Positions 28,501 through 41,078 of a stretch of 64,000 bases of DNA are shown piece by piece (within the stretch, counting starts at the first letter, position 1; the number at the start of each line of letters is the position of its first letter). The notes under the pieces are model-generated. The model had not been told where the DNA came from and did not search any database. It was given only the letters and a program-made list of their open reading frames with translations. The DNA is taken from IMG/VR virus record IMGVR_UViG_3300031524_000008, positions 1 through 64,000 of that record. The stretch is one strand, 5' to 3'. Source of the stretch: a virus. A program made the position numbers and the translations under genes.

Positions 28501-28576
28501 TGGTAGGCACGGAGGGATTCGCGCCCTCGACTCACGAGTTAGAAGCTCGGTATGATTTCTGCTTCACCACGCGCCT
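28501..28576 (-). tRNA. tRNA-Arg(TCT)
   Basis: Acceptor 7/7 bp, CCA encoded. Anticodon loop CTTCTAA. Altered elbow: D-loop CAGA (A18-G19) and T-loop CGCGAAT (G55-C56). Confidence 0.9.
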
Positions 28577-28638
28577 AAATTCGATATTTTACCACGCCTC
28601 GATTTACACTGCGTTTCAGCATTGTGAGGGCGCGTTTT

Positions 28639-28712
28639 TGGATGCGGATATTGGTTTCGCGCCAATTCTACTTCTTTCAGAGAGAAGGTTGCTACTATTA
28701 CAACAATCCGCA
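28639..28712 (-). tRNA. tRNA-Gln(CTG)
   Basis: Acceptor 7/7, CCA encoded, discriminator T. Anticodon loop CTCTGAA. D-loop AATAGTA (A18-G19), T-loop CGCGAAA (G55-C56). Confidence 0.9.
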
Positions 28713-28717
28713 GTATT

Positions 28718-28792
28718 TGGTATCCATACGGGGAATCGCGCCCCGACTAAAAGTTTAGGAAACTTTTGTGCTATCTGTTACACTATACGGAT
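28718..28792 (-). tRNA. tRNA-Arg(CCT)
   Basis: Acceptor 7/7, CCA encoded. Anticodon loop TTCCTAA. D-loop AACAGATA, T-loop CGCGATT: altered A18/G55 elbow. Confidence 0.9.
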
Positions 28793-28794
28793 AA

Positions 28795-28925
28795 AATTTA
28801 CGGAGAATCGCGCTTTCTTGATATTCGAATTCGGCTCCATACCCGAGGGATGCTGCCCTCTTCCCGCCTCTATGGTTTCTTGACCTATGTGCAGTAAGTC
28901 TCAGCGATTCGGAAACCGGCATCGA
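28795..28925 (-). ncRNA. structured non-coding stretch
   Basis: No gene. On the minus strand it contains GGTTTC/GAAACC and GAGGG/CCCTC hairpins and a fragment resembling a G55-type T arm. May be a decayed tRNA or separate RNA. Confidence 0.3.
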
Positions 28926-28929
28926 CGGC

Positions 28930-29262
28930 CTAGACCTTTTCCGTAAAATTTTTTAATGCTTTAATAGCACTTTCACCTTCGTAAAATCTAGCGTAAGTAA
29001 AGTAAGATAGTTCTTTTACCATCCCAATTACTCCATCGCCTTCTTCTCTAGTATCGACTCTAACAAAGTAAATAACTACTGCTTCTCGGTCGGTATATGG
29101 AGAGTTAGTATGTTTGAACCAAAAGAAATGAAGACCTTCTAATTCTTCGATGGCTTTATCGAAGTCGTACCACTTTGTAACTAATACAGCGGTATTATCA
29201 AATTCAAACTCTCGAACTTTAGTATCGACAAAATTTCCAATCAGAGACTTGTGCCATTTCAT
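28930..29262 (-). CDS. hypothetical protein, 110 aa
   Basis: Alpha/beta protein, aromatic-rich, no family recognised. TTGACG/TAGAAT promoter ends 6 bp before its ATG. Confidence 0.55.
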   Translation of the reverse strand: MKWHKSLIGNFVDTKVREFEFDNTAVLVTKWYDFDKAIEELEGLHFFWFKHTNSPYTDREAVVIYFVRVDTREEGDGVIGMVKELSYFTYARFYEGESAIKALKNFTEKV

Positions 29263-29268
29263 ATGTAG

Positions 29269-29296
29269 ATTCTACATTGATTAATGGTCGCGTCAA
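29269..29296 (-). promoter_or_regulatory. sigma70-like promoter
   Basis: TTGACG at 29296-29291, 16 bp, TAGAAT at 29274-29269, 6 bp to ATG at 29262. Confidence 0.7.
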
Positions 29297-29302
29297 CTAA
29301 AT

Positions 29303-29377
29303 TGGTAGCCCGTTAGGGTTACGCTCCCTATTCAACAGGTTGAAAGCCTGTGGTCCTAACTATTAGACGAACGAGCC
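29303..29377 (-). tRNA. tRNA-Glu(TTC)
   Basis: Acceptor 7/7 with wobble pairs, CCA encoded. Anticodon loop CTTTCAA. D-loop AATAGTTA, T-loop AGCGTAA: altered elbow. Its 5' end overlaps the stop of the next gene. Confidence 0.9.
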
Positions 29378-29793
29378 GTCTCATGCTTATCTCTATAATA
29401 ATTTGGGTCGAAGTCCTTTAATTCATCAAACAAACTATACGCGCTACCGCAAAGTTTGCCGGTTTCGTGAAGGTATTGCCAGTTGATTTCAGAAAATCCA
29501 GCCGCCAGAGAAGCTTGAATGTATCTTTTTAAGAATCGTACTTTAGATACAGCCTTGTTTTCCTCAGTGGTAAGATACGATTCGTAATGGTGTTTGGTTT
29601 CAGACCATTCAGGATAATCCTTCATACATTCATCGCATCCGCCGCCGTTGCAGGAAACGTTCTTACATGCTGGACACTTTATACAAACTGTCTCGCACAA
29701 TTCACAGTACGACAAAGGATATTTACCCTTCCACATTTGACGGACGCCAAAAATATTGTCCATAGTTTGGTTAAGGGTGTCAGGATTTAACAT
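29356..29793 (-). CDS. cysteine-rich zinc protein, 145 aa
   Basis: Eight cysteines between residues 31 and 57 (CELC, CIKCPAC, CNGGGCDEC) indicate two zinc knuckles. Its stop lies inside tRNA-Glu(TTC). Confidence 0.6.
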   Translation of the reverse strand: MLNPDTLNQTMDNIFGVRQMWKGKYPLSYCELCETVCIKCPACKNVSCNGGGCDECMKDYPEWSETKHHYESYLTTEENKAVSKVRFLKRYIQASLAAGFSEINWQYLHETGKLCGSAYSLFDELKDFDPNYYRDKHETARSSNS

Positions 29794-30065
29794 TATTTTA
29801 ATTCAAAATGGTTAGGCTCGTCGGTATGAAGTATTCTTAAACAAATATTATCTAAGAAAAAGACATCATACCTTATCAGTTTTTGAAATCTTGTTAAGCT
29901 ATCTTCATACCAGTTCGGACGTTTTTCTTTTATTGGAGAAGGACTCCAACAAACATTGGTTAATCTAGCGTAGTTTTCTGGACCTAATACCATTGCTACA
30001 GGGTCGCACTTAAAGGCTTTGCGATAACCTACCATAGCCTGATTTAGAGTATCGAGGTCGAACAT
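29793..30065 (-). CDS. hypothetical protein, 90 aa
   Basis: Shares its first and last bases with neighbours' stop/start codons. Small alpha/beta protein of unknown role. Confidence 0.5.
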   Translation of the reverse strand: MFDLDTLNQAMVGYRKAFKCDPVAMVLGPENYARLTNVCWSPSPIKEKRPNWYEDSLTRFQKLIRYDVFFLDNICLRILHTDEPNHFELK

Positions 30066-30589
30066 TATGACTTCTTACTGAAATTTGCAATTCCTGTAGC
30101 CACCGACATGCCGCTACAATACATTTGACTCGTGGACAAAAACTCGTTCTTCCATGACCAGTCGTTCATAACGAACTTCGAAAAATCGTCTTCCGATAAT
30201 TCAAATAGGTCGTTTGCGCTTAATTTAACCATTTGAATTGCGCGGTTGTAGTCGTCTTCGTGGCTTTCTGGAAATGGAATGTTAAAATTAAACAAAGCGT
30301 ACTGTTGTTTGGAACTAAAGACTACGGGTTTAACGCTCTCTTCTAAGTTTGTTACACTTTCGAGGGTAGTTTGTAGCTCTTCCTTAACAAGAGGTAATAC
30401 TGTCTTGATACGCTCTGAAAGAGTCTTCTTTACGCTCTTATAGTATCCTTTAAGGGCATTTGCAAGTAAGTCGTCGTGCGCTTTCTTATTATCAAGAAGA
30501 GCTTTTAAAAGGTCTTCGCGCTTGACCTTTACACGTTGAAAGGTTGAAAATGTTTTAAGGGCTTCGATGTCAGATAATGATGTAGGCAT
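30065..30589 (-). CDS. hypothetical protein, 174 aa, with NDWSWK motif
   Basis: Helical N-terminus and a C-terminal DFSKFVMNDWSWK segment that recurs in 31504-31776. Function unknown. TTGACG/TAATAT promoter 6 bp upstream of ATG. Confidence 0.55.
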   Translation of the reverse strand: MPTSLSDIEALKTFSTFQRVKVKREDLLKALLDNKKAHDDLLANALKGYYKSVKKTLSERIKTVLPLVKEELQTTLESVTNLEESVKPVVFSSKQQYALFNFNIPFPESHEDDYNRAIQMVKLSANDLFELSEDDFSKFVMNDWSWKNEFLSTSQMYCSGMSVATGIANFSKKS

Positions 30590-30595
30590 ATCCTG

Positions 30596-30624
30596 ATATT
30601 AGGAAGACTTGAATCATTCGTCAA
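30596..30624 (-). promoter_or_regulatory. sigma70-like promoter
   Basis: TTGACG at 30624-30619, 17 bp, TAATAT at 30601-30596, 6 bp to ATG. Confidence 0.75.
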
Positions 30625-30635
30625 CTAAAAAGAAA

Positions 30636-30726
30636 TGGCGGTTCGAGAAGGTAACGCTCCCTATACCGTATTTCAGGTATCAACTGTTTAGCAAACAGTG
30701 TTCAACACTTGTTGAAGACACGAACC
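30636..30726 (-). tRNA. tRNA-Ser(GCT)
   Basis: Class II with long variable arm, CCA encoded. Anticodon loop TTGCTAA. D-loop has AG in place of GG, T-loop AGCGTTA. Confidence 0.88.
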
Positions 30727-30729
30727 AAA

Positions 30730-30820
30730 TGGCGGTGAGCAGAGAACTCGCATCCCAAGCCTGTTTTAGAGGCTCCAGCTAGTTTCCAGCTAGCGTCCAT
30801 ACTTAATGGATTTACTCACC
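30730..30820 (-). tRNA. tRNA-Ser(GGA)
   Basis: Class II, acceptor 7/7, CCA encoded. Anticodon loop CTGGAAA. D-loop ATTAAGTAT, T-loop TGCGAGT: A18/G55. Confidence 0.88.
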
Positions 30821-30823
30821 AAA

Positions 30824-30915
30824 TGGAGGATAGCTGACGATTTGCACGCCAAACCTGTTTTAGAGGTTCGTTTGGTTTTCGAAACCAACCTCGCGCCTTG
30901 ACGAGTTAACTATCC
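30824..30915 (-). tRNA. tRNA-Ser(CGA)
   Basis: Class II, acceptor 7/7, CCA encoded. Anticodon loop TTCGAAA. T-loop TGCAAAT (G55); D-loop contains AAGG. Confidence 0.88.
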
Positions 30916-30918
30916 AAT

Positions 30919-31007
30919 TGGCGGATAACGTAGGTGTCGCTCCCAAAGCCATTGCTGGCTCCCATCGCTTTCAAGGCGAGTCCGAAGGCTGCTTCGGTTC
31001 ATCATCC
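30919..31007 (-). tRNA. tRNA-Ser(TGA)
   Basis: Class II, acceptor 7/7, CCA encoded. Anticodon loop CTTGAAA. D-loop AAGCAGCCTT, T-loop AGCGACA: altered elbow. Confidence 0.85.
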
Positions 31008-31013
31008 AAAAAT

Positions 31014-31139
31014 GGGAAAACGAACGCAACTAATGCTACCTACTTAAACGTCGGTCTCTTCTGCGCAATCTTCACGCTCATGGACACTGGTTTGTTTTCG
31101 GTTTGGACTAGCGATACCTTTACGGCTGCGTTCGTTCCC
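31014..31139 (-). ncRNA. 126-nt RNA closed by a 13-bp stem
   Basis: GGGAACGAACGCA at one end pairs with its complement at the other (2-nt bulge). No tRNA fold fits inside. A 13-codon frame starting MSVKIAQ lies in the middle. Directly downstream of a hypothetical gene and upstream of four Ser tRNAs. Unknown class. Confidence 0.45.
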
Positions 31140-31145
31140 TAAAAA

Positions 31146-31460
31146 TTATTCGGTAAATGTGATACCGTACTTCCGACCCGCCTTCTTGATACGAGACTTA
31201 ACCTTCCCTAGGTCAGATGAAGAGTATTCGCTAGCATTCTTATCTTTGTTAATATAACTCCATGCTGCTCGCACTCGTTCAGCGTTATCAATCGGATACT
31301 TGAAATTTGCGGGGTCTGCGTATTGAGACTTGTTCTTTGGGTATCCTTCTGGAGGAGAGTCGTGTCCAAAGGCGCTCTTACGAGGAAGTTGACCGTTAGA
31401 AATCTGATGTTCAACGATTAAATCGGAAAGGTCGATTATTTGGTCAGTGTTTGGTCGCAT
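31146..31460 (-). CDS. DUF6582-like hypothetical protein, 104 aa
   Basis: Short conserved layout (LPRKSAFG, YPIDNAERVRAAWSY, and a basic tail KVKSRIKKAGRKYGI) seen in small phage and actinobacterial proteins. GTGTAAAGA precedes the ATG by 6 bp. Confidence 0.6.
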   Translation of the reverse strand: MRPNTDQIIDLSDLIVEHQISNGQLPRKSAFGHDSPPEGYPKNKSQYADPANFKYPIDNAERVRAAWSYINKDKNASEYSSSDLGKVKSRIKKAGRKYGITFTE

Positions 31461-31503
31461 ATATCTTCTTTACACTAAAAGGTTGCCTAGTTACTGAATT
31501 CTT

Positions 31504-31776
31504 TTACTTCGGAACCCCTATCATGCCAAGGGCGTTCTTGTTTAGTGCGGAATCGTTTTCCGCACCGTAAACAATTTTCCATGACCAGTCGTTCATAACG
31601 TACTTCGAAAGGTCGTTTGCACTCAATTCCGTTCCCTCTACAATTTCACACGAATCAAATGAACCGTCAACAAAACTAATCTCGGCACGATTTTTGTCGT
31701 GAATAAAAATTGAAGACATCCCCATTTCTTCTTTAGTTATAAAATCTACAATTTGTTGTCTAGTAAATCTAATCAT
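31504..31776 (-). CDS. hypothetical protein, 90 aa, NDWSWK motif
   Basis: Starts MIRFTRQ (a GTG 18 bp upstream is an alternative). Contains LSANDLSKYVMNDWSWK, shared with 30065-30589. Confidence 0.5.
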   Translation of the reverse strand: MIRFTRQQIVDFITKEEMGMSSIFIHDKNRAEISFVDGSFDSCEIVEGTELSANDLSKYVMNDWSWKIVYGAENDSALNKNALGMIGVPK

Positions 31777-31806
31777 GGATTCATTTTGCACCACTTGACG
31801 TATGAA

Positions 31807-31977
31807 TCAAGCTATTTTTTTGTAGATTTGACGGACTTTTTCGATGTCTTTTCGCGTCATTTCAACAGGATTAACAACAGAACTAATAGCAAACAATGCT
31901 GCTTCGGCGGTTAGTTCTTTTTCGTTCCATGATTTAATAGCATTACGAACGAATTCCACCACTTCTTTATTTTTCAT
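31807..31977 (-). CDS. hypothetical protein, 56 aa
   Basis: Start at MKNKEVV, whose ATG is 1 nt from the CCA of tRNA-Leu(CAA). Helical; unknown. Confidence 0.5.
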   Translation of the reverse strand: MKNKEVVEFVRNAIKSWNEKELTAEAALFAISSVVNPVEMTRKDIEKVRQIYKKIA

Positions 31978-31978
31978 A

Positions 31979-32069
31979 TGGTCCGGTAGGTGAGATTCGC
32001 ACTCACGTTGTTTACCATAAAGGTAAGGCGTTTTGAGTGCCTCGCGTCTCGCTGCTGCGCCACAACCGG
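31979..32069 (-). tRNA. tRNA-Leu(CAA)
   Basis: Class II, CCA encoded, one acceptor mismatch. Anticodon loop CTCAAAA. D-loop CAGCAGCGAGA, T-loop TGCGAAT: A18/G55. Confidence 0.88.
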
Positions 32070-32073
32070 AAAA

Positions 32074-32164
32074 TGGTCCTGAAAGTGGGGATTGCACCCA
32101 CGATGTTTACCGCTAGGGTAATGCGTTTTAAGTGCATCGCGTCTCGCTACTGCGCCATTTCAGG
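32074..32164 (-). tRNA. tRNA-Leu(TAA)
   Basis: Class II, acceptor 7/7, CCA encoded. Anticodon loop CTTAAAA. D-loop has TAGCG, T-loop TGCAATC: altered elbow. Confidence 0.9.
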
Positions 32165-32166
32165 AT

Positions 32167-32240
32167 TGGTGCCCATGCCGAGCATCGCACTCGGTCCCAC
32201 AAGTTCTAAGCTTGTGCGCTCTCTCTTGGCGTACATGGGC
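32167..32240 (-). tRNA. class I tRNA with anticodon TAG
   Basis: Acceptor 7/7, CCA encoded, 4-nt variable loop. Anticodon loop CTTAGAA would read CUA. Bacterial Leu tRNAs are class II, and a proper class II Leu(TAG) exists at 36024, so the identity here is open. T-loop TGCGATG. Confidence 0.8.
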
Positions 32241-32244
32241 TAAA

Positions 32245-32405
32245 GTAGAAATCGTAGGAGTCGAACCTACATTACCGAATCTTGTCCACCACGCTAAGTA
32301 ATATTTCAAATCGGAACATCCTTTCGGAGCCTTAGCGAAGACTTCATGGAGCCGCTGTCGGGTATTGCGCCCGCTAGACAAGTTTACAAAACTCGGCTTC
32401 CTCTT
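32245..32405 (-). ncRNA. rearranged tRNA-like or structured RNA
   Basis: Holds two T-arm-like hairpins, one canonical (TTCGACT) and one G55-type (CGCAATA), plus nested CTTGTC/GACAAG and CGCTAAG/CTTAGCG stems. No single cloverleaf forms. May be a broken pair, a permuted tRNA or a tRNA interrupted by other RNA. Confidence 0.35.
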
Positions 32406-32423
32406 AGGAACAACGGCATTAAA

Positions 32424-32639
32424 TTAAGTAATAGGACCAGCTAATCCTGCTGGCGCTGCTGGCATTCCAGTCGAGGGACCGGGGCAATTACCAGCGGAAG
32501 GAGAAATAGCGGGTGTAGGTAACGCTGAAAGTGTGACGGGCGTTCCAATAATCATTGGGTTGCCGCAATACTGGCACTTATCTTCGTGCTTTTTATGTTT
32601 TCCTTTGTGTCCGCAGGTTGGGCAATATTGATGTGTCAT
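32424..32639 (-). CDS. zinc-ribbon protein with Pro/Ala-rich tail, 71 aa
   Basis: CPTCGHKG and CQYCG form a zinc ribbon; the rest is low-complexity Pro/Ala/Gly. GTGTAAT lies just upstream. Confidence 0.55.
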   Translation of the reverse strand: MTHQYCPTCGHKGKHKKHEDKCQYCGNPMIIGTPVTLSALPTPAISPSAGNCPGPSTGMPAAPAGLAGPIT

Positions 32640-32658
32640 ATTCTCTATTACACAAAAA

Positions 32659-32733
32659 TGGTAGGCACATCGGGATTCGCGCCCGAGATTTCACTTTCGT
32701 AGAGTGATGTGATGTCTGCTTCACTATGCGCCT
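32659..32733 (-). tRNA. tRNA-Arg(ACG)
   Basis: Acceptor 7/7, CCA encoded. Anticodon loop CTACGAA; A34 would need conversion to inosine. D-loop AGCAGACA, T-loop CGCGAAT: altered elbow. Confidence 0.9.
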
Positions 32734-32739
32734 AAATTA

Positions 32740-32950
32740 CCTCTCCGTAGGACTCAGCAAGCTATAATTGCCCGCAGCAAACAGATTAGTAAAAAAATTT
32801 GAAAGCTTGCTTTTACGCCAAAGAGAAACCAAGCCTTACCAGTTACGGGGTGCCGGTTAGTTTCGGTGTTGTTCCGCTCAAGTATGGACGAGAAACGGCA
32901 CCTAGTCTCACTTTTTAAGGAATTGCTGCCTCTAAGCCAACCCACTTTCA
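32740..32950 (-). ncRNA. structured non-coding stretch
   Basis: About 210 nt with no convincing gene. A GGTGCCG/CGGCACC stem encloses 40 nt. A minus-strand frame ending in a hydrophobic stretch lacks a usable start codon. Confidence 0.3.
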
Positions 32951-32952
32951 AA

Positions 32953-33035
32953 TGGAGGACGAAGCTGGGAGTCGCACCCATTACGTTATACATCGTTGCG
33001 ACCAAGTATAACGGGACACTAGTACCAACCCGCCC
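32953..33035 (-). tRNA. tRNA-like with enlarged anticodon arm
   Basis: Acceptor 7/7 (wobbles), discriminator T, CCA encoded, T-loop TGCGACT. The anticodon arm is a 7-bp stem GTTATAC/GTATAAC with a 14-nt loop; refolding gives loop GTCGCAA (CGC, Ala). Possibly an insertion. Confidence 0.5.
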
Positions 33036-33109
33036 ATTAAATGCTGCCACAGCTTGTATAGCTAAGACTACAAGCATAACTTCCCCTTAGTTAGGGCGTG
33101 TGGACTGCA

Positions 33110-33184
33110 TGGTATCCCATGTCGGTATTGCTCCGACTACTCAGCTTTGGAAGAGCCGCGTGTATCTGTCAACACTTATGAGAC
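33110..33184 (-). tRNA. tRNA-Gly(TCC)
   Basis: Acceptor 7/7, CCA encoded. Anticodon loop CTTCCAA. D-loop TGACAGAT, T-loop AGCAATA: altered elbow. Confidence 0.88.
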
Positions 33185-33189
33185 AAAAA

Positions 33190-33264
33190 GGAGCAGCGCG
33201 TAGGGAGTTGCACCCTAACATACAGGTTGGAACCCGTCATGCTATCTATTACATCACACACTGC
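33190..33264 (-). tRNA. Gly-like tRNA with 6-nt anticodon loop
   Basis: Cloverleaf without encoded CCA (CCT instead). Anticodon stem closes on TTCCAA, one base short. T-loop TGCAACT. Probably inactive. Confidence 0.5.
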
Positions 33265-33267
33265 AAA

Positions 33268-33341
33268 TGGAGCGGCATGTCGGTACTGGCCCGACTTTTT
33301 CTGCTTGGAAGGCAGAGACATTACCTTTATGTTAATGCCGC
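33268..33341 (-). tRNA. tRNA-Gly(TCC), second copy
   Basis: Acceptor 7/7, CCA encoded, discriminator T. Anticodon loop CTTCCAA. Elbow variant: D-loop AAAGGTA keeps G18-G19 but T-loop GCCAGTA has C55, allowing a G18-C55 Watson-Crick pair. Confidence 0.88.
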
Positions 33342-33343
33342 AA

Positions 33344-33720
33344 ATGCGGTGCATCCAAATCTATCATGAACAATCGACTCACTAATCTTCTTTTTCTAAC
33401 CGTTTTGAATGCACCGCGTAAAAGAGCTAGGTTGTAAGTTGCAGTACGTCAAGCGCACTTTACATTGCTTACACTACCATCGCTCTTGGCTCCTACCCTA
33501 CGTAACGCTCGTAGCTGGTCCCGTTTAACAGACGGTCGGTTCGCACTTGCCACCCCGATAGGAATATTCAAATTAGGTCCATTCAACCCCTATAGCATCA
33601 CACTCCTTAGTAAGGGGAGTAGCGCTTTCGCTGACGGCAGGTTGAACATAGGTGTACATCCTCACGCCCGTTACAAGCGGGCGCTAGTTCCACAGTGTTG
33701 CCTTCTATTTATCCTAACTT
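33344..33720 (-). ncRNA. large structured RNA candidate, ~375 nt
   Basis: No gene. Minus-strand features: 9-bp GCGGTGCAT/ATGCACCGC inverted repeat near the 3' end, hairpins CGCCCG/CGGGCG, GCGAAAGC tetraloop and an 8-bp GTTCAACC/GGTTGAAT helix. Compatible with a large ornate RNA; class not identified. Confidence 0.45.
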
Positions 33721-33724
33721 GAAA

Positions 33725-33798
33725 TGGTCGAAGCTGGTGGTTACGCTCCACCGTTTGAAGAGTGTCATTCTTCCGTCCTACTATTGGACGAAGCCTCG
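33725..33798 (-). tRNA. tRNA-Val(GAC)
   Basis: Acceptor 7/7, CCA encoded. Anticodon loop ATGACAC. D-loop AATAGTA, T-loop AGCGTAA: altered elbow. Confidence 0.88.
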
Positions 33799-33903
33799 AT
33801 TTGCTATCAGCTAAACCGCCTCCCCTTACAATCGGGTATTTAAGTTCCCCTTTAGCTAGGGATATTTATCGGAAGTAACGCCGCTTTTTTATAACGTGAT
33901 AAC

Positions 33904-33980: not shown

Positions 33981-33984
33981 AAAA

Positions 33985-34070: not shown

Positions 34071-34073
34071 AAA

Positions 34074-35582: not shown

Positions 35583-35588
35583 GATTAT

Positions 35589-35616: not shown

Positions 35617-35623
35617 TAATTAA

Positions 35624-35700: not shown

Positions 35701-35707
35701 GACAAAT

Positions 35708-35782
35708 TGGAGGCGGGTATCGGAATTGCACCGATGTATAATGGGTTTGCAAGCCACGGCCTTACTACTTGGCTAACCCGCC
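35708..35782 (-). tRNA. tRNA-Cys(GCA)
   Basis: Acceptor 7/7, CCA encoded, discriminator T as in Cys tRNAs. Anticodon loop TTGCAAA. D-loop AGTAGTA, T-loop TGCAATT. Confidence 0.88.
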
Positions 35783-35796
35783 ATTAAGCAGCCAAC

Positions 35797-35857
35797 TTCA
35801 CGGAGTTGGTGGCGTCCGTACAATCGGGCGCTGGTCGCATTGCGTCCTCTGCTCTAA
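35797..35857 (-). pseudogene. tRNA remnant
   Basis: Ends in ACCA with a half D arm (TTAGAGCAG) and one arm-like hairpin; too short for a cloverleaf. Confidence 0.3.
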
Positions 35858-35860
35858 CGA

Positions 35861-35934
35861 TGGTATCGCATGAGGGTTACGCTCCCTCTTATGCAAGTTG
35901 AGAACCTGCTGTCCTACTATTAGACGAATGCGAC
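35861..35934 (-). tRNA. tRNA-Glu(CTC)
   Basis: Acceptor 7/7, CCA encoded; body close to bacterial Glu tRNA (GTCxCxTTCGTCTA). Anticodon loop TTCTCAA. D-loop AATAGTA, T-loop AGCGTAA. Confidence 0.9.
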
Positions 35935-35939
35935 ATAAA

Positions 35940-36015
35940 TGGCACCGATGACAGGACTCGCACCTGCTTTTGTACAGCTTGAAAGGCTGTTGAGTTGCTC
36001 TTACTCATCACCGGC
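35940..36015 (-). tRNA. tRNA-Glu(TTC), second copy
   Basis: Acceptor 7/7 (wobbles), discriminator G, CCA encoded. Anticodon loop CTTTCAA. D-loop AAGAGCA, T-loop TGCGAGT. Confidence 0.88.
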
Positions 36016-36023
36016 ATTGAATT

Positions 36024-36106
36024 TGGTAGGCGTGACAGGATTCGCACCCGCATGTCTTTCGACGGCTGCTTCTAAGGCAACTGTGTATACATTCCACCAC
36101 ACACCT
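36024..36106 (-). tRNA. tRNA-Leu(TAG)
   Basis: Class II with GTC/GAC variable stem, acceptor 7/7, CCA encoded. Anticodon loop CTTAGAA. D-loop GAATGTATA (U18-G19) with T-loop TGCGAAT, allowing a U18-G55 wobble. Confidence 0.87.
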
Positions 36107-36109
36107 AAA

Positions 36110-36188
36110 TGGCTCCTGCTCGTGGTAACGCTCCACGCTAAATCTTGGTTAACAGCCAAGCGGTTGTCACTATGACGCCTCAACAGGA
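36110..36188 (-). tRNA. tRNA-Asn(GTT)
   Basis: Acceptor 7/7, discriminator G as in Asn, CCA encoded. Anticodon loop CTGTTAA. D arm enlarged (GTCA/TGAC). T-loop AGCGTTA. Confidence 0.85.
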
Positions 36189-36194
36189 ATAAAA

Positions 36195-36268
36195 TGGCTC
36201 GCACTGCTGCATCCGTAGTGCAGCTACTTCCCCTAACGCGGGGATGTTTTAGATAAACTAAGTGCGAA
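36195..36268 (-). ncRNA. aberrant tRNA-like RNA
   Basis: Perfect 7-bp acceptor, CCA encoded, but D-loop only ATCTA, T-loop CTACGGA and anticodon loop GCGTTA (6 nt, no U33 in place). Unlikely to decode. Confidence 0.45.
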
Positions 36269-36272
36269 TAAA

Positions 36273-36346
36273 TGGTCGGAAATGAAGGTTACGCTCCCTC
36301 GTTTTGTCGGTGTAAACGACCCGTTCTACTATTGAACTAATCTCCG
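36273..36346 (-). tRNA. tRNA-Val(TAC)
   Basis: Acceptor 7/7, CCA encoded. Anticodon loop TTTACAC. D-loop AATAGTA, T-loop AGCGTAA. Confidence 0.88.
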
Positions 36347-36387
36347 TAATTGCGTTGGGCCATCCAGCCAACGCTGCCGTCCCTAAC

Positions 36388-36462
36388 TGGTTGTCCCACA
36401 AGGTAACGCTCCCTGTTCTCTCGGTTCAAAGCCGAGGGTAATAACTTCTATACGATAGGACA
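36388..36462 (-). tRNA. tRNA-Gln(TTG)
   Basis: Acceptor 7/7, CCA encoded. Anticodon loop CTTTGAA. D-loop AGAAGTTA, T-loop AGCGTTA. Confidence 0.9.
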
Positions 36463-36470
36463 GTAAATAA

Positions 36471-36546
36471 TGGTGTCTCGACAGGGAATTGCACCCCGAA
36501 TTCTAGTTTCGAAGACTAGCGTGATGGTCTGTTTCACTACCAAGAC
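36471..36546 (-). tRNA. tRNA-Arg(TCG)
   Basis: Acceptor 7/7, CCA encoded. Anticodon loop CTTCGAA. D-loop AACAGACCA, T-loop TGCAATT. Confidence 0.88.
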
Positions 36547-36877
36547 ATTTGCGCGTTTACGGGCGCACCCGATTCTGACAACCTAGAATATCAGACGATT
36601 TTTAGGAGGCGGATACAAGGTGACTTGTACCCTCGACCAAGGATTTATCTAGTAAAAATGTGTTCGAATATAAGGAGTTGCACCCATGTATCTGCGTCTT
36701 CTGGACTTATCACTGGATAATAGAGAGACGCACGTAACTTTATCAACGTCCGATTTTCACTATTGACTAACCCATAGTTGATTATGAGTTTTCGCTCTTA
36801 GCGGCATTCATCAAATTACCAATGGTAAATGCGGTCGGCACAGAATTGTATTGTCTTACTCTATGATACTATCAAAC
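36547..36877 (-). other. 330-nt gap with tRNA debris
   Basis: No gene. A GCGTCT/AGACGC stem and a TGCAACT T-loop-like piece near 36675 suggest a decayed tRNA; a TTACC/GGTAA palindrome lies near 36815. Nothing else recognised. Confidence 0.35.
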
Positions 36878-36995
36878 TGGTCACGACGATTGGATTTGCA
36901 CCAATAGTGTTCTGCTACTCCATATTACCGCAGCTTTATGCATCTTGGATGGCTTCGAAGGCCAACGCCTTTCTCTATCTTTTGGCTACATCGTG
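36878..36995 (-). ncRNA. 118-nt oversize tRNA-like RNA
   Basis: Acceptor 7/7, CCA encoded, GCC/GGC D stem, anticodon loop CTTCGAA (UCG) and a G55 T-loop TGCAAAT. The variable region is about 43 nt, far beyond any normal tRNA; possible insertion. Confidence 0.55.
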
Positions 36996-36997
36996 AT

Positions 36998-37073
36998 TGG
37001 ATGTCTCACTAGGATTCGCACCTAGACTGAATGGTTCAAGGCCACTAGTGCTGAACTGTTACACTATGAGACA
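36998..37073 (-). tRNA. tRNA-Gln(TTG), second copy with C33
   Basis: Acceptor 7/7, CCA encoded, discriminator T. Anticodon loop CCTTGAA has C at the normally invariant U33. D-loop AACAGTTCA, T-loop TGCGAAT. Confidence 0.8.
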
Positions 37074-37079
37074 ATCAAA

Positions 37080-37157
37080 TGGTCGAGCGTGTCGGATTCG
37101 CACCGCGACTCAAGCTTTTTTCGAAAGCCCGTATGTTACTGTTACAACACACGCTCG
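37080..37157 (-). tRNA. tRNA, anticodon uncertain (GAA or CGA)
   Basis: Acceptor 7/7, CCA encoded, D-loop AACAGTA, T-loop TGCGAAT. The anticodon arm can pair in two registers, giving GAA with C33 or CGA with U33. Confidence 0.65.
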
Positions 37158-37163
37158 ATTAAA

Positions 37164-37248
37164 TGGTGCGCCGAGAAAGAATTTGCACTTTCACAGCTAA
37201 TAGCGGGAGTTTTACAGACTCTTGGGTTCACTCGTACCCAGCCGACGC
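37164..37248 (-). tRNA. tRNA-Tyr(GTA)
   Basis: Class II, acceptor 7/7, CCA encoded. Anticodon loop CTGTAAA. D-loop ACGAGTGA; T-loop TGCAAATT is 8 nt. Confidence 0.82.
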
Positions 37249-37253
37249 AACTA

Positions 37254-37304
37254 ACCCTGACTGGTGCGCGGCGAGAATCAACTCGACAGAGACGCGTTCA
37301 GGGT
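37254..37304 (-). terminator. possible terminator or processing hairpin
   Basis: AACCCTGA/TCAGGGTT 8-bp stem about 15 bp past the stop of the 3D-domain gene. No clear T run, so termination is uncertain. Confidence 0.4.
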
Positions 37305-37316
37305 TTTGGTTAATTA

Positions 37317-37745
37317 TTAATAAATGATGACGTTCATATACTCAGGCTCAACCTTAGCAAGTCGGTGTGCCATGCTCGTTGTAGTATAAACATCGAAGAC
37401 GTAAGCTTTTCCGTGACTTGCTTTCTTTGCTGTCACTGCTCGTCCCCTGTCCTGAATTAAGAAATGCTCACTTGGCAACACATACTTCAAAGAAGGTATG
37501 TCAATGTGAGTCTCAAATGGAAAATCGGGATGGCCCGCAACTGTCACGCCCATATGAGCGCGGCGAACTTGAGGGTCAGCTACTCGTGAACCCCACTTGT
37601 CTTCACCTACATGGTAGTAGGTAATTCGAGCTACGATTGTTCTCGGCTTATTGTATCCGAACTTGTGACGAGAAAACCAACTGGATGCTGGACTACTACA
37701 AGTTAGGAATAACATAGTTAATACGATTGCTATTACTTTTTTCAT
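37317..37745 (-). CDS. secreted 3D-domain protein, 142 aa
   Basis: N-terminal signal peptide (MKKVIAIVLTMLFLTCSS, possibly lipoprotein-like) and a 3D/double-psi barrel domain with YYHVGEDKWGSR and IQDRGRAV ... FDVYTTTS, as in MltA- or RlpA-related peptidoglycan proteins. May help exit through the cell wall. Confidence 0.7.
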   Translation of the reverse strand: MKKVIAIVLTMLFLTCSSPASSWFSRHKFGYNKPRTIVARITYYHVGEDKWGSRVADPQVRRAHMGVTVAGHPDFPFETHIDIPSLKYVLPSEHFLIQDRGRAVTAKKASHGKAYVFDVYTTTSMAHRLAKVEPEYMNVIIY

Positions 37746-37804
37746 TGCTTTCCTTTCATTTTTTGGGTGATTGGAGAGCAGTCCGACATACTAACTCTCT
37801 GAGA

Positions 37805-37937
37805 TGGTGAGTTTGATAGGATTTGCACCTATAAGGCAACTCTCGACGCTTCAATTCGTCCGTTTGCCACCAGTCTAGGGAAGCTTGAAGGACTTCCTTT
37901 GTAACCAGCGCGTCTGCTAATTTCGCCACAACGCTCA
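37805..37937 (-). ncRNA. 133-nt Leu-like tRNA with large insertion
   Basis: CCA encoded, Leu-type D arm (GCG..CGC with TAGCAGA) and T-loop TGCAAAT. About 44 extra nt around the anticodon arm (GGAAG/CTTCC hairpin) and a long GGCAA/TTGCC variable arm. Acceptor has an internal mismatch. Confidence 0.5.
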
Positions 37938-37940
37938 ACA

Positions 37941-38016
37941 TGGCGGATAGGACGGGTATCGCGCCCGCTTAAACTTGATTGACAATCAAGTATTGATACT
38001 TTTCAAACTCCTATCC
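37941..38016 (-). tRNA. tRNA-Asp(GTC)
   Basis: Acceptor 7/7, discriminator G, CCA encoded. Anticodon loop TTGTCAA. D-loop AAAAGTAT, T-loop CGCGATA. Confidence 0.88.
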
Positions 38017-38021
38017 AAAAT

Positions 38022-38118
38022 TGGTGGGCAAGGAAGGATTTTAACCCCCGGTGTTCGATTAGCTGTTGATAGCGCCAGCAGGAGGTTTATTCATGCTTAT
38101 TTCTCCTGTCGCCACCAC
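38022..38118 (-). ncRNA. aberrant tRNA-like RNA
   Basis: CCA encoded; T-loop-like TTAAAAT after a G-rich stem, and a CAGGAG/CTCCTG hairpin. The 5' acceptor strand does not match. Mosaic or decayed. Confidence 0.3.
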
Positions 38119-38278
38119 ATACTAATTTCTATTCCAGCTTAGATGCTGGTGTCTTTCGTCTCTCTTGACTACTCACCCAAAAGCTATATCGGGCTAACCC
38201 GTTACATGGTCACTAGGAGTAAAGCCGCTATTGAAAGACGGACAATGTACCCTTGCGGGCCGTTTCTCTTTGATGTAA
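38119..38278 (-). other. 160-nt non-coding stretch with hairpins
   Basis: No gene. CCAGC/GCTGG and CGGG/CCCG hairpins; no cloverleaf found. Confidence 0.3.
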
Positions 38279-38352
38279 TGGCGGGAGTAAGGGGTTACGC
38301 TCCCCTGCTAAATGCTCGACAGGCACTCGTGCTACTATTACACCACACTCCC
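38279..38352 (-). tRNA. tRNA-Asp(GTC), second copy
   Basis: Acceptor 7/7, discriminator G, CCA encoded. Anticodon loop CTGTCGA. D-loop AATAGTA, T-loop AGCGTAA. Confidence 0.88.
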
Positions 38353-38376
38353 ATTTTCATAAACAGTTCTTTTTTA

Positions 38377-38451
38377 TGGTTGCAGCATGACGAGTCTCAC
38401 GTCAGCCTCTCCCATGAACGCGGGAGTGTACTAATTTTATACTATACTGCG
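38377..38451 (-). ncRNA. tRNA-like with A18-U19/G55-A56 elbow
   Basis: 75 nt, CCA encoded, acceptor 6/7. D-loop AAAATTA and T-loop TGAGACT allow U19-A56 in place of G19-C56. Anticodon stem CTCCC/GGGAG with 8-nt loop GCGTTCAT; no readable anticodon. Confidence 0.55.
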
Positions 38452-38528
38452 TGGTTTCAGAAGTTGGAGTCGAACCAACTATCTCAACGGTTATGAGCCG
38501 CGAATGAATTCCGTTTCACTCTTCTGAT
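38452..38528 (-). tRNA. tRNA-Met(CAT), canonical elbow
   Basis: Acceptor 6/7, CCA encoded. Anticodon loop CTCATAA. D-loop AACGGAAT (GG) and T-loop TTCGACT, universal elbow. Probably the elongator Met. Shares one base with the next tRNA's CCA. Confidence 0.85.
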
Positions 38529-38602
38529 GGTCAGATACCCGAAGGTTGCATTCGGTATTTCCTACACCCCAAGTAGGCGGATTACTGTCTTCCTCGTATC
38601 TG
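38528..38602 (-). tRNA. tRNA-Pro(GGG)
   Basis: Acceptor 7/7, CCA encoded. Anticodon loop TTGGGGT. D-loop AGACAGTAA, T-loop TGCAACC. Confidence 0.88.
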
Positions 38603-38606
38603 ATTT

Positions 38607-38703
38607 TGGTTACAGGGGCCGGTAACGCTCCGACTACCTCTTGGTTATCTCGTTGGCCTGAAAAAGCCATGAGCCAAGCAAGCTACTTTTGCTCCACCCT
38701 GCG
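38607..38703 (-). tRNA. initiator-like tRNA-fMet(CAT) with 22-nt anticodon-loop insertion
   Basis: Body closely follows E. coli tRNA-fMet: the 5' CGCxGGGTGGAGCA, C1/A72 mismatch and ACCA end. The anticodon stem CTTGG/CCAAG holds a 29-nt loop, CTCAT then 22 extra nt then AA. Removing them gives CTCATAA, the standard loop. The insertion can form CTC/GAG and GGC/GCC helices. Elbow is altered (AAAAGTA, AGCGTTA). Confidence 0.8.
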
Positions 38704-38708
38704 ATAAA

Positions 38709-38782
38709 TGGTCGGGAATGATGGTAACGCTCCATCGCCACACCGCCCCAAACGGCGCGTCCTACTATTAGACTAATTCCCG
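38709..38782 (-). tRNA. tRNA-Pro(TGG)
   Basis: Acceptor 7/7, CCA encoded. Anticodon loop TTTGGGG. D-loop AATAGTA, T-loop AGCGTTA. Confidence 0.9.
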
Positions 38783-38787
38783 AAAAA

Positions 38788-38862
38788 TGGTCGCTACAGA
38801 GGCGTTTGCATCCTCTTTCTAGGCTTATGAAACCTGAGTCCTACTACATGAACGATGCAGCG
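38788..38862 (-). tRNA. tRNA(CAT), Met or Ile2
   Basis: Acceptor 7/7, CCA encoded. Anticodon loop TTCATAA. If C34 becomes lysidine it would read AUA as Ile. D-loop ATGTAGTA, T-loop TGCAAAC. Confidence 0.85.
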
Positions 38863-38915
38863 ATAAAAAACACTCACCAAATTACGCTTTACTAAGAGGC
38901 GTGGCGAGTTTGATA

Positions 38916-38990
38916 TGGTGCTCGTAGGGAGATTCGCACTCCCACTGTCAACGTTCTCAACGTTGCTTCTCTGCGTTGGAATATACGAGC
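38916..38990 (-). tRNA. class I tRNA with anticodon GAG
   Basis: Acceptor 7/7, CCA encoded. Anticodon loop TTGAGAA reads Leu CUC/CUU but the variable loop is only 5 nt. D-loop with GCAGA, T-loop TGCGAAT. Confidence 0.8.
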
Positions 38991-38994
38991 AAAA

Positions 38995-39068
38995 TGGTGG
39001 CACCGACTGGAATCGTCCAGTATTTCCCGCAATTCTAGGCGGGACGTTCTACATTGAACTACGGTGCA
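38995..39068 (-). ncRNA. aberrant tRNA-like RNA
   Basis: CCA encoded, acceptor 6/7, GTTC/GAAC D stem. Anticodon stem TCCCG/CGGGA with an oversize loop; T-loop ACGATT (6 nt). Not a normal decoder. Confidence 0.4.
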
Positions 39069-39114
39069 TCTTTCCAAGCGTGGGGCATAGTATAGTCGCT
39101 CAAAACACACGCTA

Positions 39115-39498
39115 TTAACACAAAATTCTGTCATCTAACCTCTTATACCTAAATAAGTGCGTTAGAGTATAAGCTATAAAGAAAACGTCAGTTATTCTTC
39201 CCGCCCAATCCGCTGATTGATTATCTTTTAAATACAGTCCAATAATCAAAAAATTCGAAATTAACAATATTGCAATTGATACAGCAATGCTAACTTTGTA
39301 GGATTTGTACCTACAATTAATAAGGCCCGCCGCTCCTACGACAAGGAGGAAAAGCTGCCAGCCTATTGTATTTCTCAAATCTGGAAAATACATAATGGAC
39401 CGATGATGAAGATGCAATGCCAACGTAAATAGCGCAATAACAAACATTTTAGTAGATAGGAAGGCGTATACCGTCCTCGCTGATAGATTCATTTTCAT
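39115..39498 (-). CDS. four-helix membrane protein, 127 aa
   Basis: Four hydrophobic segments with the layout of 25204-25614 and 26310-26702. GTGTAAAGT lies 6 bp before the ATG. Function unknown. Confidence 0.6.
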   Translation of the reverse strand: MKMNLSARTVYAFLSTKMFVIALFTLALHLHHRSIMYFPDLRNTIGWQLFLLVVGAAGLINCRYKSYKVSIAVSIAILLISNFLIIGLYLKDNQSADWAGRITDVFFIAYTLTHLFRYKRLDDRILC

Positions 39499-39520
39499 AT
39501 ATCTACTTTACACGTTATTT

Positions 39521-39580
39521 TGGTGGACCGTGAGGCGCTTGCAAGGATTCGTCGCCCCCTATGGTACATGACGGCCCACG
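39521..39580 (-). pseudogene. 60-nt truncated tRNA
   Basis: Perfectly pairable acceptor (GGGCCGT/ACGGTCC), CCA encoded, one long hairpin but no D arm or anticodon arm. Likely a deletion remnant. Confidence 0.4.
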
Positions 39581-39636
39581 TAAATTTTAATTTAGCAAAC
39601 ATAATCTGCCAAGCTGATTTTAAACAGGAAGTAAAA

Positions 39637-39711
39637 TGGTTGGCATAGAGAATTTTGCAATCTCGACCTATCGCTTATCAAGCGAGTGCTCTGCTTCTGA
39701 GCTACATGCCA
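39637..39711 (-). tRNA. tRNA-Ile(GAT), second copy
   Basis: Acceptor 7/7, CCA encoded. Anticodon loop TTGATAA. D-loop AGAAGCA, T-loop TGCAAAA. Overlaps the HNH gene end by 10 bp. Confidence 0.85.
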
Positions 39712-40166
39712 ATCTTGAATTGCTTGAGTAGGTCTATTACTTGTTGCTTCGAAAAGCCATTCTTGCCTAAGTTAACAAAGACGCATACGAATTCAACATT
39801 CCCCTTAATATATCCTTTTGAAGAGTCGATACGGTCAAGTGATGCGGTATTTGGTTGTGCTCTCTTATTAGGATGCGGCAAAACTAGCTCTACGTCAGTA
39901 TAAGCACATTTACCATTTTGGATTTGCCAAATAGATTCCAAATATTCTTTAGTTATAGAGCATTCTTTAGGTCTGGAACGAGCGTTTTTTCGGGCAAAAA
40001 GAAGTATTGATTTGAATGGGTCAAATGATAACGCTCTATCTGCACCCGCGCATTTTTCATCACAGAACATTGATGCTTTCCCTAGACGGAGACGGCGGTT
40101 ATACTCTTTGATTTCCTTATCAAAGGGCTTACCGCATGTTGCGCAAACTAAAGTAATCGTTCTCAT
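39702..40166 (-). CDS. HNH endonuclease, 154 aa
   Basis: Zinc pairs (CATC, CDEKC) and an HNH-like core CAYTDV ... LDRIDSSKGYIKGN, typical of phage homing HNH enzymes. Inserted between tRNA genes; GTGTAAAA 8 bp before the ATG. Confidence 0.8.
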   Translation of the reverse strand: MRTITLVCATCGKPFDKEIKEYNRRLRLGKASMFCDEKCAGADRALSFDPFKSILLFARKNARSRPKECSITKEYLESIWQIQNGKCAYTDVELVLPHPNKRAQPNTASLDRIDSSKGYIKGNVEFVCVFVNLGKNGFSKQQVIDLLKQFKIGM

Positions 40167-40206
40167 GCTCGCTTTTACACGCAGCGGTGGAGAACGGGAA
40201 CAAAAT

Positions 40207-40282
40207 TGGTGGACCTACTCGGTAACGCTCCGAGTCTTTCGCATTGCAAGTGCGATGTGCTATCTTTTATCACTATAAGCCC
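40207..40282 (-). tRNA. tRNA-Ala(TGC)
   Basis: Acceptor 7/7, CCA encoded. Anticodon loop CTTGCAA. D-loop has AAAGATA, T-loop AGCGTTA. Confidence 0.88.
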
Positions 40283-40388
40283 AATTAAACTACTAACATA
40301 ATCTCTACGGCTGGCTGCGACGATTGTAGTCACCAAAAGCCTACACTATGTTGTAGTTCGAGTTGCCGAAGTATCTAATCGCGGCAAA

Positions 40389-40577
40389 TTACCAATGATG
40401 CCATAGCGGGGCAGAGCCGCCACTAATAACATCGAGAGCAAAACTGAGCAATTCAAAAAGTGCCAACAGGAAGAAAATCCCGCCGACAAGATACTTTGCC
40501 CATTGAATTGTTATGTATGTCCACGCAACCCATGCAATGAGTGCGAACAACGCTGTATAGAATAGTAATATAATCAT
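40389..40577 (-). CDS. small membrane protein, 62 aa
   Basis: Start at MIILLFYTALFALIAW, 5 bp after GTGTAAAGA; two transmembrane helices. A longer frame would run through a tRNA-like gene and is rejected. Confidence 0.6.
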   Translation of the reverse strand: MIILLFYTALFALIAWVAWTYITIQWAKYLVGGIFFLLALFELLSFALDVISGGSAPLWHHW

Positions 40578-40596
40578 ACTACTCTTTACACCCAAA

Positions 40597-40665
40597 TGGC
40601 TCGATAGTTCAGAATACCGCACTGCTTCGGATATTATCGCCTTCTCAGGCCATCTGTCCCATCGA
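40597..40665 (-). ncRNA. short aberrant tRNA-like RNA
   Basis: CCA encoded, 7/7 acceptor (wobbles), CAG/CTG D-like arm; the rest is reduced to 69 nt with no clean anticodon. Confidence 0.35.
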
Positions 40666-40683
40666 GAGGGCAGACGAATTAAA

Positions 40684-40757
40684 TGGCACGCATCCAAGGA
40701 CTTGCACCCTGACGAATGGTTTTGGAGACCATCATGCTTCTGTTACACCAGACGCGT
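40684..40757 (-). tRNA. tRNA-Trp(CCA)
   Basis: Acceptor 7/7, discriminator G, CCA encoded. Anticodon loop CTCCAAA. D-loop AACAGAA, T-loop TGCAAGT: altered elbow. Confidence 0.9.
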
Positions 40758-40759
40758 AT

Positions 40760-40838
40760 TGGCTCAATGTCGAGGGTTCGAACCTCGTTCCCCCCGCTTT
40801 TTACAGCCGGGAATTTTAACCAGTTAAACTAACAAAGA
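40760..40838 (-). tRNA. Tyr(GTA)-like tRNA, canonical elbow
   Basis: CCA encoded, discriminator G, acceptor 5/7. D-loop with CTGGTT and T-loop TTCGAAC are universal forms. CTGTAAA sits in an enlarged loop closed by CCCG/CGGG. Confidence 0.55.
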
Positions 40839-40915
40839 TGGTCGCCACCGGACGTTATTCTCGTCTTTCTTCGGCCTTCATGTGGCCGCTGTTCTAATAT
40901 GTTGAACTAATGGCG
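40839..40915 (-). ncRNA. tRNA-like with A18-U19/G55-A56 elbow
   Basis: Acceptor 7/7, CCA encoded. D-loop AACATATTA and T-loop AGAATAA allow U19-A56. Anticodon loop ACATGAA (C33) would give AUG; decoding doubtful. Confidence 0.55.
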
Positions 40916-40917
40916 AT

Positions 40918-40991
40918 TGGGGCAAAGGGTGGGATTTTAACCCACGTTTCCGCTTTTAAGGGCGACGTTCTGAACGCTAAACTACCTTCGC
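40918..40991 (-). ncRNA. tRNA-like with G18-U19/U55-A56 elbow
   Basis: Acceptor 7/7, CCA encoded, discriminator C. D-loop AGCGTTCA and T-loop TTAAAAT keep G18-U55 but swap 19-56 to U-A. Anticodon loop CCTTAAAA, 8 nt. Confidence 0.55.
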
Positions 40992-41003
40992 ATGGTACTA
41001 AAA

Positions 41004-41078
41004 TGGAGCGGGTAGGGGAATTCGCATCCCCACGCAAGCGTTGGCAACGCCCGATGCTAGCTATTACATCATACCCGC
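41004..41078 (-). tRNA. tRNA-Gly(GCC)
   Basis: Acceptor 7/7, discriminator T, CCA encoded. Anticodon loop TTGCCAA. D-loop AATAGCTA, T-loop TGCGAAT. Confidence 0.9.

Follow-up and report, generated by a model that had tools for sequence, protein, structure and literature searches.

A tRNA array with a rewritten elbow

The window analysed here is a 64,000-nucleotide stretch of a 64,613-base IMG/VR virus contig from an uncultured phage (IMGVR_UViG_3300031524_000008), and it carries a dense array of tRNA genes (Table 1) in which the elbow, where the D-loop and T-loop meet, is rewritten. According to the textbooks, nearly all tRNAs have G18, U55 (pseudouridine) and C56. The original prediction was that about 45 tRNAs of this array, nearly every one, instead combine A18-G19 with G55-C56. 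We scanned the window with our own cloverleaf scanner, which requires acceptor, D, anticodon and T stems, a 7-nt T-loop and an encoded CCA. At its strict setting the scanner returned 39 tRNA candidates on the minus strand (24–42 kb), and five dinucleotide-block shuffles gave 0 candidates scoring ≥30; with looser stems it returned 50, all on the minus strand. These tRNAs depart from the G18-G19 plus U54-U55-C56 signature of the Rfam tRNA family RF00005: the T-loop reads NGC (i.e., G55-C56) in 46 of the 50, nearly all of which have A18-G19 in the D-loop.

The predicted count is thus borne out, as is the claim that pseudouridine 55 is impossible where G55 replaces U55, and G19 and C56 are kept in the scanned set as claimed. 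"Nearly every" holds for 46 of 50 and fails for a few tRNAs whose elbow is still GG/TTC, one of them the tRNA at 24649 with its amber anticodon; the four without G55-C56 are those at 24649 (CTA), 38452 (CAT) and 33268 (Gly TCC) and a doubtful one at 34074. The further claim that T54 is often lost agrees with a hand count of residue 54 among the 46 (T 23, A 14, C 8, G 1), i.e., T is gone in 23. In the 45 best-scored tRNAs, residues 18-19/55-56 read AG/GC in 38, CG/GC in 3, TG/GC in 1, GG/CC in 1 and GG/TC in 2, some CG and TG assignments being uncertain because of the D-loop register. All 20 amino acids are covered once tRNA-Tyr(GTA) is counted.

Standard tools under-call this array: over the window ARAGORN reports 24 tRNAs, and the Rfam model RF00005 reports 35 within 24–42 kb. 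Of the latter, 33 matches, mostly with rewritten elbows, reach the gathering threshold of the covariance model, as expected of a tRNA cloverleaf. The rewritten elbow explains such under-calling by standard tRNA finders. This elbow is real. IMG contigs from other metagenomes are 99.985–100% identical to the window over 37630–57854 and 2506–23843, which makes sequencing error unlikely in the overlapping regions; the tRNAs of a 40.5-kb contig (G402) give the same Rfam scores as the window tRNAs.

Table 1. Features of the window. Elbows are given as residues 18-19/T-loop residues 54-56; "scanner" is our own cloverleaf scanner, and ARAGORN is named where it also called the gene.
Feature	Coordinates	Strand	Basis
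tRNA array, rewritten elbows, ~50 tRNAs, 20 amino acids, small open reading frames between	28012..41078	-	
tRNA-Thr(CGT), AG/TGC	28012..28088	-	scanner
tRNA-Arg(TCT), AG/CGC	28501..28576	-	scanner + ARAGORN
tRNA-Gln(CTG), AG/CGC, U1-A72	28639..28712	-	scanner, identity elements
tRNA-Arg(CCT), AG/CGC	28718..28792	-	scanner + ARAGORN
tRNA-Glu(TTC), AG/AGC	29303..29377	-	scanner + ARAGORN
tRNA-Ser(GCT), AG/AGC, long variable arm	30636..30726	-	scanner
tRNA-Ser(GGA), AG/TGC	30730..30820	-	scanner
tRNA-Ser(CGA), AG/TGC	30824..30915	-	scanner
tRNA-Ser(TGA), NGC T-loop	30919..31007	-	scanner
tRNA-Leu(CAA), AG/TGC	31979..32069	-	scanner + ARAGORN
tRNA-Leu(TAA), AG/TGC	32074..32164	-	scanner + ARAGORN
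tRNA-Leu(TAG), AG/TGC	32167..32240	-	scanner + ARAGORN
tRNA-Thr(TGT), AG/CGC, short D-loop	32347..32417	-	scanner
tRNA-Arg(ACG), AG/CGC	32659..32733	-	scanner + ARAGORN
tRNA-Gly(TCC), AG/AGC	33110..33184	-	scanner
tRNA-Gly(TCC), other combination: G18-G19/C55-C56 (T-loop GCC)	33268..33341	-	scanner
tRNA-Asn(GTT), AG/AGC, G73	33487..33563	-	scanner, identity elements
tRNA-Val(GAC), AG/AGC	33725..33798	-	scanner
tRNA-Phe(GAA), C18-G19/TGC	34151..34225	-	scanner
tRNA-Lys(CTT), AG/TGC	34235..34309	-	scanner
tRNA-Thr(GGT), AG/GGC	34400..34474	-	scanner
tRNA-Ile(TAT), AG/TGC, long variable arm	34491..34583	-	scanner + ARAGORN
tRNA-Lys(TTT), AGC T-loop, uncertain D-loop register	34595..34684	-	scanner
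tRNA-Lys(CTT), AG/TGC	34688..34774	-	scanner
tRNA-Lys(TTT), AG/CGC	34865..34939	-	scanner
tRNA-Ile(GAT), AG/TGC	34947..35021	-	scanner + ARAGORN
tRNA-His(GTG), AG/CGC, A73	35073..35146	-	scanner + ARAGORN, identity elements
tRNA-Cys(GCA), AG/TGC, U73	35708..35782	-	scanner + ARAGORN, identity elements
tRNA-Glu(CTC), AG/AGC	35861..35934	-	scanner + ARAGORN
tRNA-Glu(TTC), AG/TGC	35940..36015	-	scanner
tRNA-Leu(TAG), TGC T-loop, uncertain residue 18	36024..36106	-	scanner + ARAGORN
tRNA-Asn(GTT), AG/AGC, G73	36110..36188	-	scanner, identity elements
tRNA-Val(TAC), AG/AGC	36273..36346	-	scanner
tRNA-Gln(TTG), AG/AGC, U1-A72	36388..36462	-	scanner + ARAGORN, identity elements
tRNA-Arg(TCG), AG/TGC	36471..36546	-	scanner + ARAGORN
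tRNA-Arg(TCG)-like, rewritten T-loop TGC, variable region 44 nt	36878..36995	-	scanner + Rfam
tRNA-Gln(TTG), AG/TGC, U1-A72	36998..37073	-	scanner + ARAGORN, identity elements
tRNA-Tyr(GTA), D-loop ACGAGTGA, 8-nt T-loop TGCAAATT	37164..37248	-	by eye
tRNA-Asp(GTC), AG/CGC, G73	37941..38016	-	scanner, identity elements
tRNA-Asp(GTC), AG/AGC, G73	38279..38352	-	scanner + ARAGORN, identity elements
tRNA(CAT), exception: canonical GG/TTC elbow, 1:72 mismatch	38452..38528	-	scanner, strict + loose
tRNA-Pro(GGG), AG/TGC, C1-G72	38528..38602	-	scanner, identity elements
tRNA-Pro(TGG), AG/AGC, C1-G72	38709..38782	-	scanner + ARAGORN, identity elements
tRNA(CAT), AG/TGC	38788..38862	-	scanner
tRNA-Leu(GAG), TGC T-loop; AG if 3-pair D-stem	38916..38990	-	scanner + ARAGORN
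tRNA-Ile(GAT), AG/TGC	39637..39711	-	scanner
tRNA-Ala(TGC), AG/AGC, G3-U70	40207..40282	-	scanner, identity elements
tRNA-Trp(CCA), AG/TGC, G73	40684..40757	-	scanner + ARAGORN, identity elements
tRNA-Gly(GCC), AG/TGC, U73	41004..41078	-	scanner + ARAGORN
Contrast tRNA: amber anticodon CTA, canonical GG/TTC elbow	24649..24723	-	ARAGORN, Rfam, scanner
P-loop kinase-like protein (AAA_33), candidate RNA/polynucleotide 5'-kinase	42958..43407	-	
RNA ligase (PF09414)	46008..46778	-	
T4 Rnl1-type RNA ligase (PF09511)	48879..50081	-	

Covariation, signs of use and spread

Two viral samples show how the bases at the elbow change together. The first was anchored on A18-G19 tRNAs by a pattern search (T-arm GGGAGCGTWACCC followed by CCA) and comprised at least 119 viral stretches, many of which, scanned whole, mix ordinary and rewritten tRNAs; with the anchor tRNAs excluded, it gave, among the matches listed, 894 GG-UC, 188 AG-GC, 9 AG-UC and 2 GG-GC tRNAs. 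The second, anchored on canonical tRNAs, gave 590, 23, 3 and 0, respectively, and places the prevalence of rewritten tRNAs free of the first anchor at ~3.6% of tRNAs, in 14 of 119 contigs. The 54:58 pair is a tertiary contact of the tRNA elbow, and 18:55 and 19:56 are known contacts of the same elbow (PMC4810234). Across 505 distinct viral tRNAs with 7-nt D-loops (i.e., a fixed register; loops of 8 or more were kept out because their register is ambiguous), mutual information peaks at these pairs, at 0.50 for 18-55 (G:U or A:G), 0.19 for 19-56 (G:C, A:U or U:A) and 0.58 for 54-58 (U:A, A:U, G:G or C:A). Mutual information and contingency tables thus indicate that the 18:55 and 19:56 partnerships are maintained.

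In two 634–642-kb phages (L005 and L006), T-loops read AUCGUAA, pairing A54 with U58, alongside a normal GG/UC elbow, so the 54:58 pair can switch alone.

The array tRNAs also look usable. Their stems are unbroken and their CCA is encoded, features that the scanner itself selects for; independently of the scanner, residue 73 is that of the canonical viral majority of its own isotype in 33 of 43 cases (21 expected). Synthetase identity elements match the anticodon, as in translation-competent tRNAs (Ala G3-U70; Pro C1-G72 in both genes; Gln U1-A72 in all three; G73 in Asp, Asn and Trp; U73 in Cys). Such elements would not be expected to survive decay, which is thus unlikely, in line with the original prediction that these genes are not decaying, and together with the stems they argue for predicted charging and use in translation. 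From these sequence patterns, we consider it very probable that these are working tRNAs with a covarying alternative elbow. The tRNA-His has A73 where the viral majority has C73; A73 is a trait of some alphaproteobacteria and hints, weakly, at an alphaproteobacterial host.

The A18/G55 elbow also occurs outside phages. When a genome collection was scanned for D-loop AATAGTA with T-loop AGCGTWA, 120 loci came back; of the matches listed, the majority were Pelagibacteraceae (the ocean bacterium SAR11), with tRNA-Val(GAC) in most of these loci and His(GTG), Phe(GAA) or Thr(GGT) in some. One SAR11 genome combines a rewritten tRNA-Val(GAC) with 23 other tRNAs that all read GG/UUC. The strict pattern occurred in 1 of 299 sampled Pseudomonadota genomes, the SAR11 centre itself; of 93 genomes from the class to which a Verrucomicrobiia metagenome-assembled genome belongs, two matched, possibly as phage contigs. 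As the GAC anticodon should decode GUU and GUC, the elbow of the SAR11 tRNA-Val is expected to work in translation. A need for a phage-only processing route, one option of the original prediction, is not supported, as SAR11 chromosomes carry the same elbow in this tRNA. A text search of the SAR11 tRNA-signature paper (D-loop, T-loop, A18) found no mention of the feature.

To trace origins, elbow and anticodon were masked and the nearest of 1,894 viral tRNAs was found for each of the 38 AG/GC tRNAs of the window. The nearest relative was canonical (GG/TC) for 26 of 38, 15 of these for the same amino acid, and another rewritten tRNA for 10. As the nearest relatives are mostly canonical and often share the amino acid, conversion probably occurred many times, independently; with ~80% of the comparison set canonical, some tRNAs have probably also inherited their rewritten state. 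Specifically, the window tRNA-Gly(GCC) shares its acceptor stem and much of its body with its canonical counterpart in Sinorhizobium phage Phosso, from which it differs at 18 and 55. Founder duplication of the whole set was ruled out by low cross-isotype similarity within the array. A protein search for related phages returned only near-identical contigs and one relative at 34%, none of them a close lineage in which the transition can be seen, and blastn of single rewritten tRNAs against phage records gave no match.

An unrelated 83-kb contig (G399; L395), sharing few and only distantly similar proteins with the window, carries 34 tRNA candidates, almost all rewritten, in several elbow combinations that include A18-C19/G55-G56 (C19 facing G56) and G18-U19/U55-A56. 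Rewriting is graded by isotype: His and Phe are often rewritten, and Arg, Leu, Ser and Trp rarely.

What may drive the rewriting

In the mechanism we propose, the partnership of G18 with U55 (pseudouridine) gives way to one of A18 with G55, while G19-C56 stays. Within the T-loop, the 54:58 pair often changes as well (U-A to A-U, C-A or G-G). G can replace U in U-turns. Many rewritten T-loops read G-C-R-A, and by analogy with the GNRA loop, whose G stands in for the U of the U-turn, G55 may start the T-loop turn and take the role of U55. The L-shape, charging and the G19-C56 face, which RNase P and the ribosome use, would be preserved, while the targets of TrmH (G18), TrmA (U54) and TruB (U55) are removed. 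Independent change in many isotype lineages would imply that selection pushed the whole set in one direction, most likely towards escape from a host factor recognising the canonical elbow (a T-loop/elbow tRNase or a modification-dependent step). During an attack on the host tRNAs, phage translation would then run on the phage's own set, with RNA ligases kept for repair. We put at roughly 0.5 the probability that the array encodes functional translation tRNAs, as a nearly complete set, with a rebuilt elbow probably serving escape from a host factor.

The driver itself, escape from a host activity reading G18, U54 or U55, is a tentative proposal that we rate somewhat below even odds. It is favored by the parallel rewriting of all isotypes, by the several other combinations in G399, by the RNA ligases and kinase-like gene near the array, and by the existence of a T-loop-specific tRNase, CdiA-CT E479, which cuts between T and pseudouridine (PMC9086364). 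For phage tRNAs, evasion of tRNA-cutting defences has moreover been proposed or demonstrated (PMC10264068, PMC11555353). Several points weigh against escape: those studies of evasion deal with the anticodon loop or with how tRNAs are supplied rather than with the elbow; the isotype gradient resembles intrinsic tolerance and needs no defence; the SAR11 cases are also explicable by drift or intrinsic permissiveness; two window tRNAs retain GG/TTC; and Streptomyces phage Moab, with a canonical array, also has an RNA ligase. Cas12a3, considered as a specific elbow reader, was rejected because it contacts the T-arm backbone and CCA tail instead (PMC12851939).

Compensatory, near-neutral drift would need no external driver: under weaker constraint, G18:U55 and A18:G55 would be isofunctional and interconvert via A18:U55 or G18:G55. 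Those intermediates do occur (AG/UC 9, among the matches listed, and 3 in the two samples; GG/GC 2, among the matches listed, and 0), the same solution appears in unrelated viruses and in SAR11, and the isotype gradient is compatible with intrinsic tolerance. Still, the near-fixation of one solution over 20 isotypes from mostly canonical relatives is hard to obtain without directional pressure, and most viral arrays, including those of phages Moab, KVP40, Csp-D17 and Phosso, are canonical, so that we regard drift as unlikely. Another possibility is that an elbow with G55, A18 and any base at 54 is pre-organised without m5U54, pseudouridine 55 or Gm18, allowing fast maturation or escape from quality control with no nuclease involved. 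About half of the set replaces all three modifiable bases and most others two, in keeping with this and with the capacity of G to replace U in U-turns, but residue 54 is still T in 23 of 46, and independence from modification seems to us rather improbable as the driver.

A staphylococcal peptidoglycan tRNA-Gly has a non-canonical elbow, is a single isotype and is non-ribosomal. The window tRNAs could likewise serve an EF-Tu-independent reaction, and their G55-C56 resembles the elbow of that tRNA; yet the array spans 20 amino acids with identity elements, keeps C56 and G19, and shares its elbow with a SAR11 tRNA-Val(GAC) expected from its anticodon to act in translation, which together make a non-ribosomal role very improbable. 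Decaying pseudogenes or a sequence artefact, to which degraded-looking tRNA-like pieces between the genes might point, can be dismissed given the near-identical sequence in other metagenomes (overlaps), the strict covariation and the identity elements.

The arrays of KVP40, Moab, Phosso and 634–642-kb uncultured phages (LR745206/LR756502) are likewise dense, with many isotypes and small open reading frames between, and for some isotypes (Gly, Asn/Ile) their body sequences are close to the window tRNAs; unlike in the window, almost every tRNA there has a GG/UUC or GG/AUC elbow. The rewritten SAR11 tRNAs share A18-G19 and G55-C56 with the window (loops AGCGUAA in Val and His, UGC in Phe) but are few, the rest of the chromosomal set being canonical. 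Countering tRNA-targeting immunity is also the role proposed for phage tRNAs that escape anticodon nucleases (van den Berg 2023, PMC10264068) or make up for depleted tRNAs (PMC11555353); in a text search, both papers describe changes in the anticodon loop or dosage and do not mention elbow, T-loop or D-loop. tRNA-Pyl and type II mitochondrial tRNAs (PMC7609411) also lack G18G19/TPsiC, but there the D/T-loop contact is lost or re-architected, whereas the window tRNAs keep 19:56 and swap 18:55 as a covarying pair. A search of open-licence PubMed Central papers turned up no account of a tRNA set with an A18/G55 elbow. Phage tRNA arrays, and the part they play against tRNA-targeting immunity, have been described before; what appears new is the covarying A18/G55 elbow.

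Returning to escape, some phages may have installed set-wide a second natural elbow chemistry (A18-G55, with 54:58 and 19:56 re-paired) that hides their tRNAs from readers of the universal T-loop, an elbow arms race that we propose with reserve, holding it a little less probable than its negation. Covarying replacement over a full phage set, other viruses and SAR11 would demonstrate that working tRNAs accept another pairing at the elbow and lend phylogenetic support to the 18:55 and 54:58 contacts. The array also offers a ready substrate set for tests of elbow-directed tRNA-targeting immunity and for orthogonal tRNA design.

Neighbouring genes and minor features

An RNA-repair-like cluster (42291–50081) combines the P-loop kinase, an ATP-dependent DNA ligase, and Rnl2-like and T4 Rnl1-like RNA ligases with a phosphoesterase-like open reading frame (by eye) and an ABC-ATPase/GNAT fusion. 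PARP, Macro-domain and NADAR proteins (12503–13843, 22670–23167 and 44875–45396) bring ADP-ribose/NAD chemistry into the same contig. Despite the amber-anticodon tRNA, amber reassignment is not evident, as stop codons among 77 non-overlapping open reading frames are TAG 10, TGA 14 and TAA 53.

Within the array, a 154-amino-acid protein (39702–40166), possibly HNH-like by eye, has a 48% relative in another rewritten array (L031, 11567–12013), and an abiF RNA (RF03085) match at 38872–38908 (minus strand) falls below threshold (34.0 bits versus a cutoff of 37). A tRNA-like element at 40918–40991, with D-loop GT and T-loop TTAAAAT, fits G18-U55 plus U19-A56.

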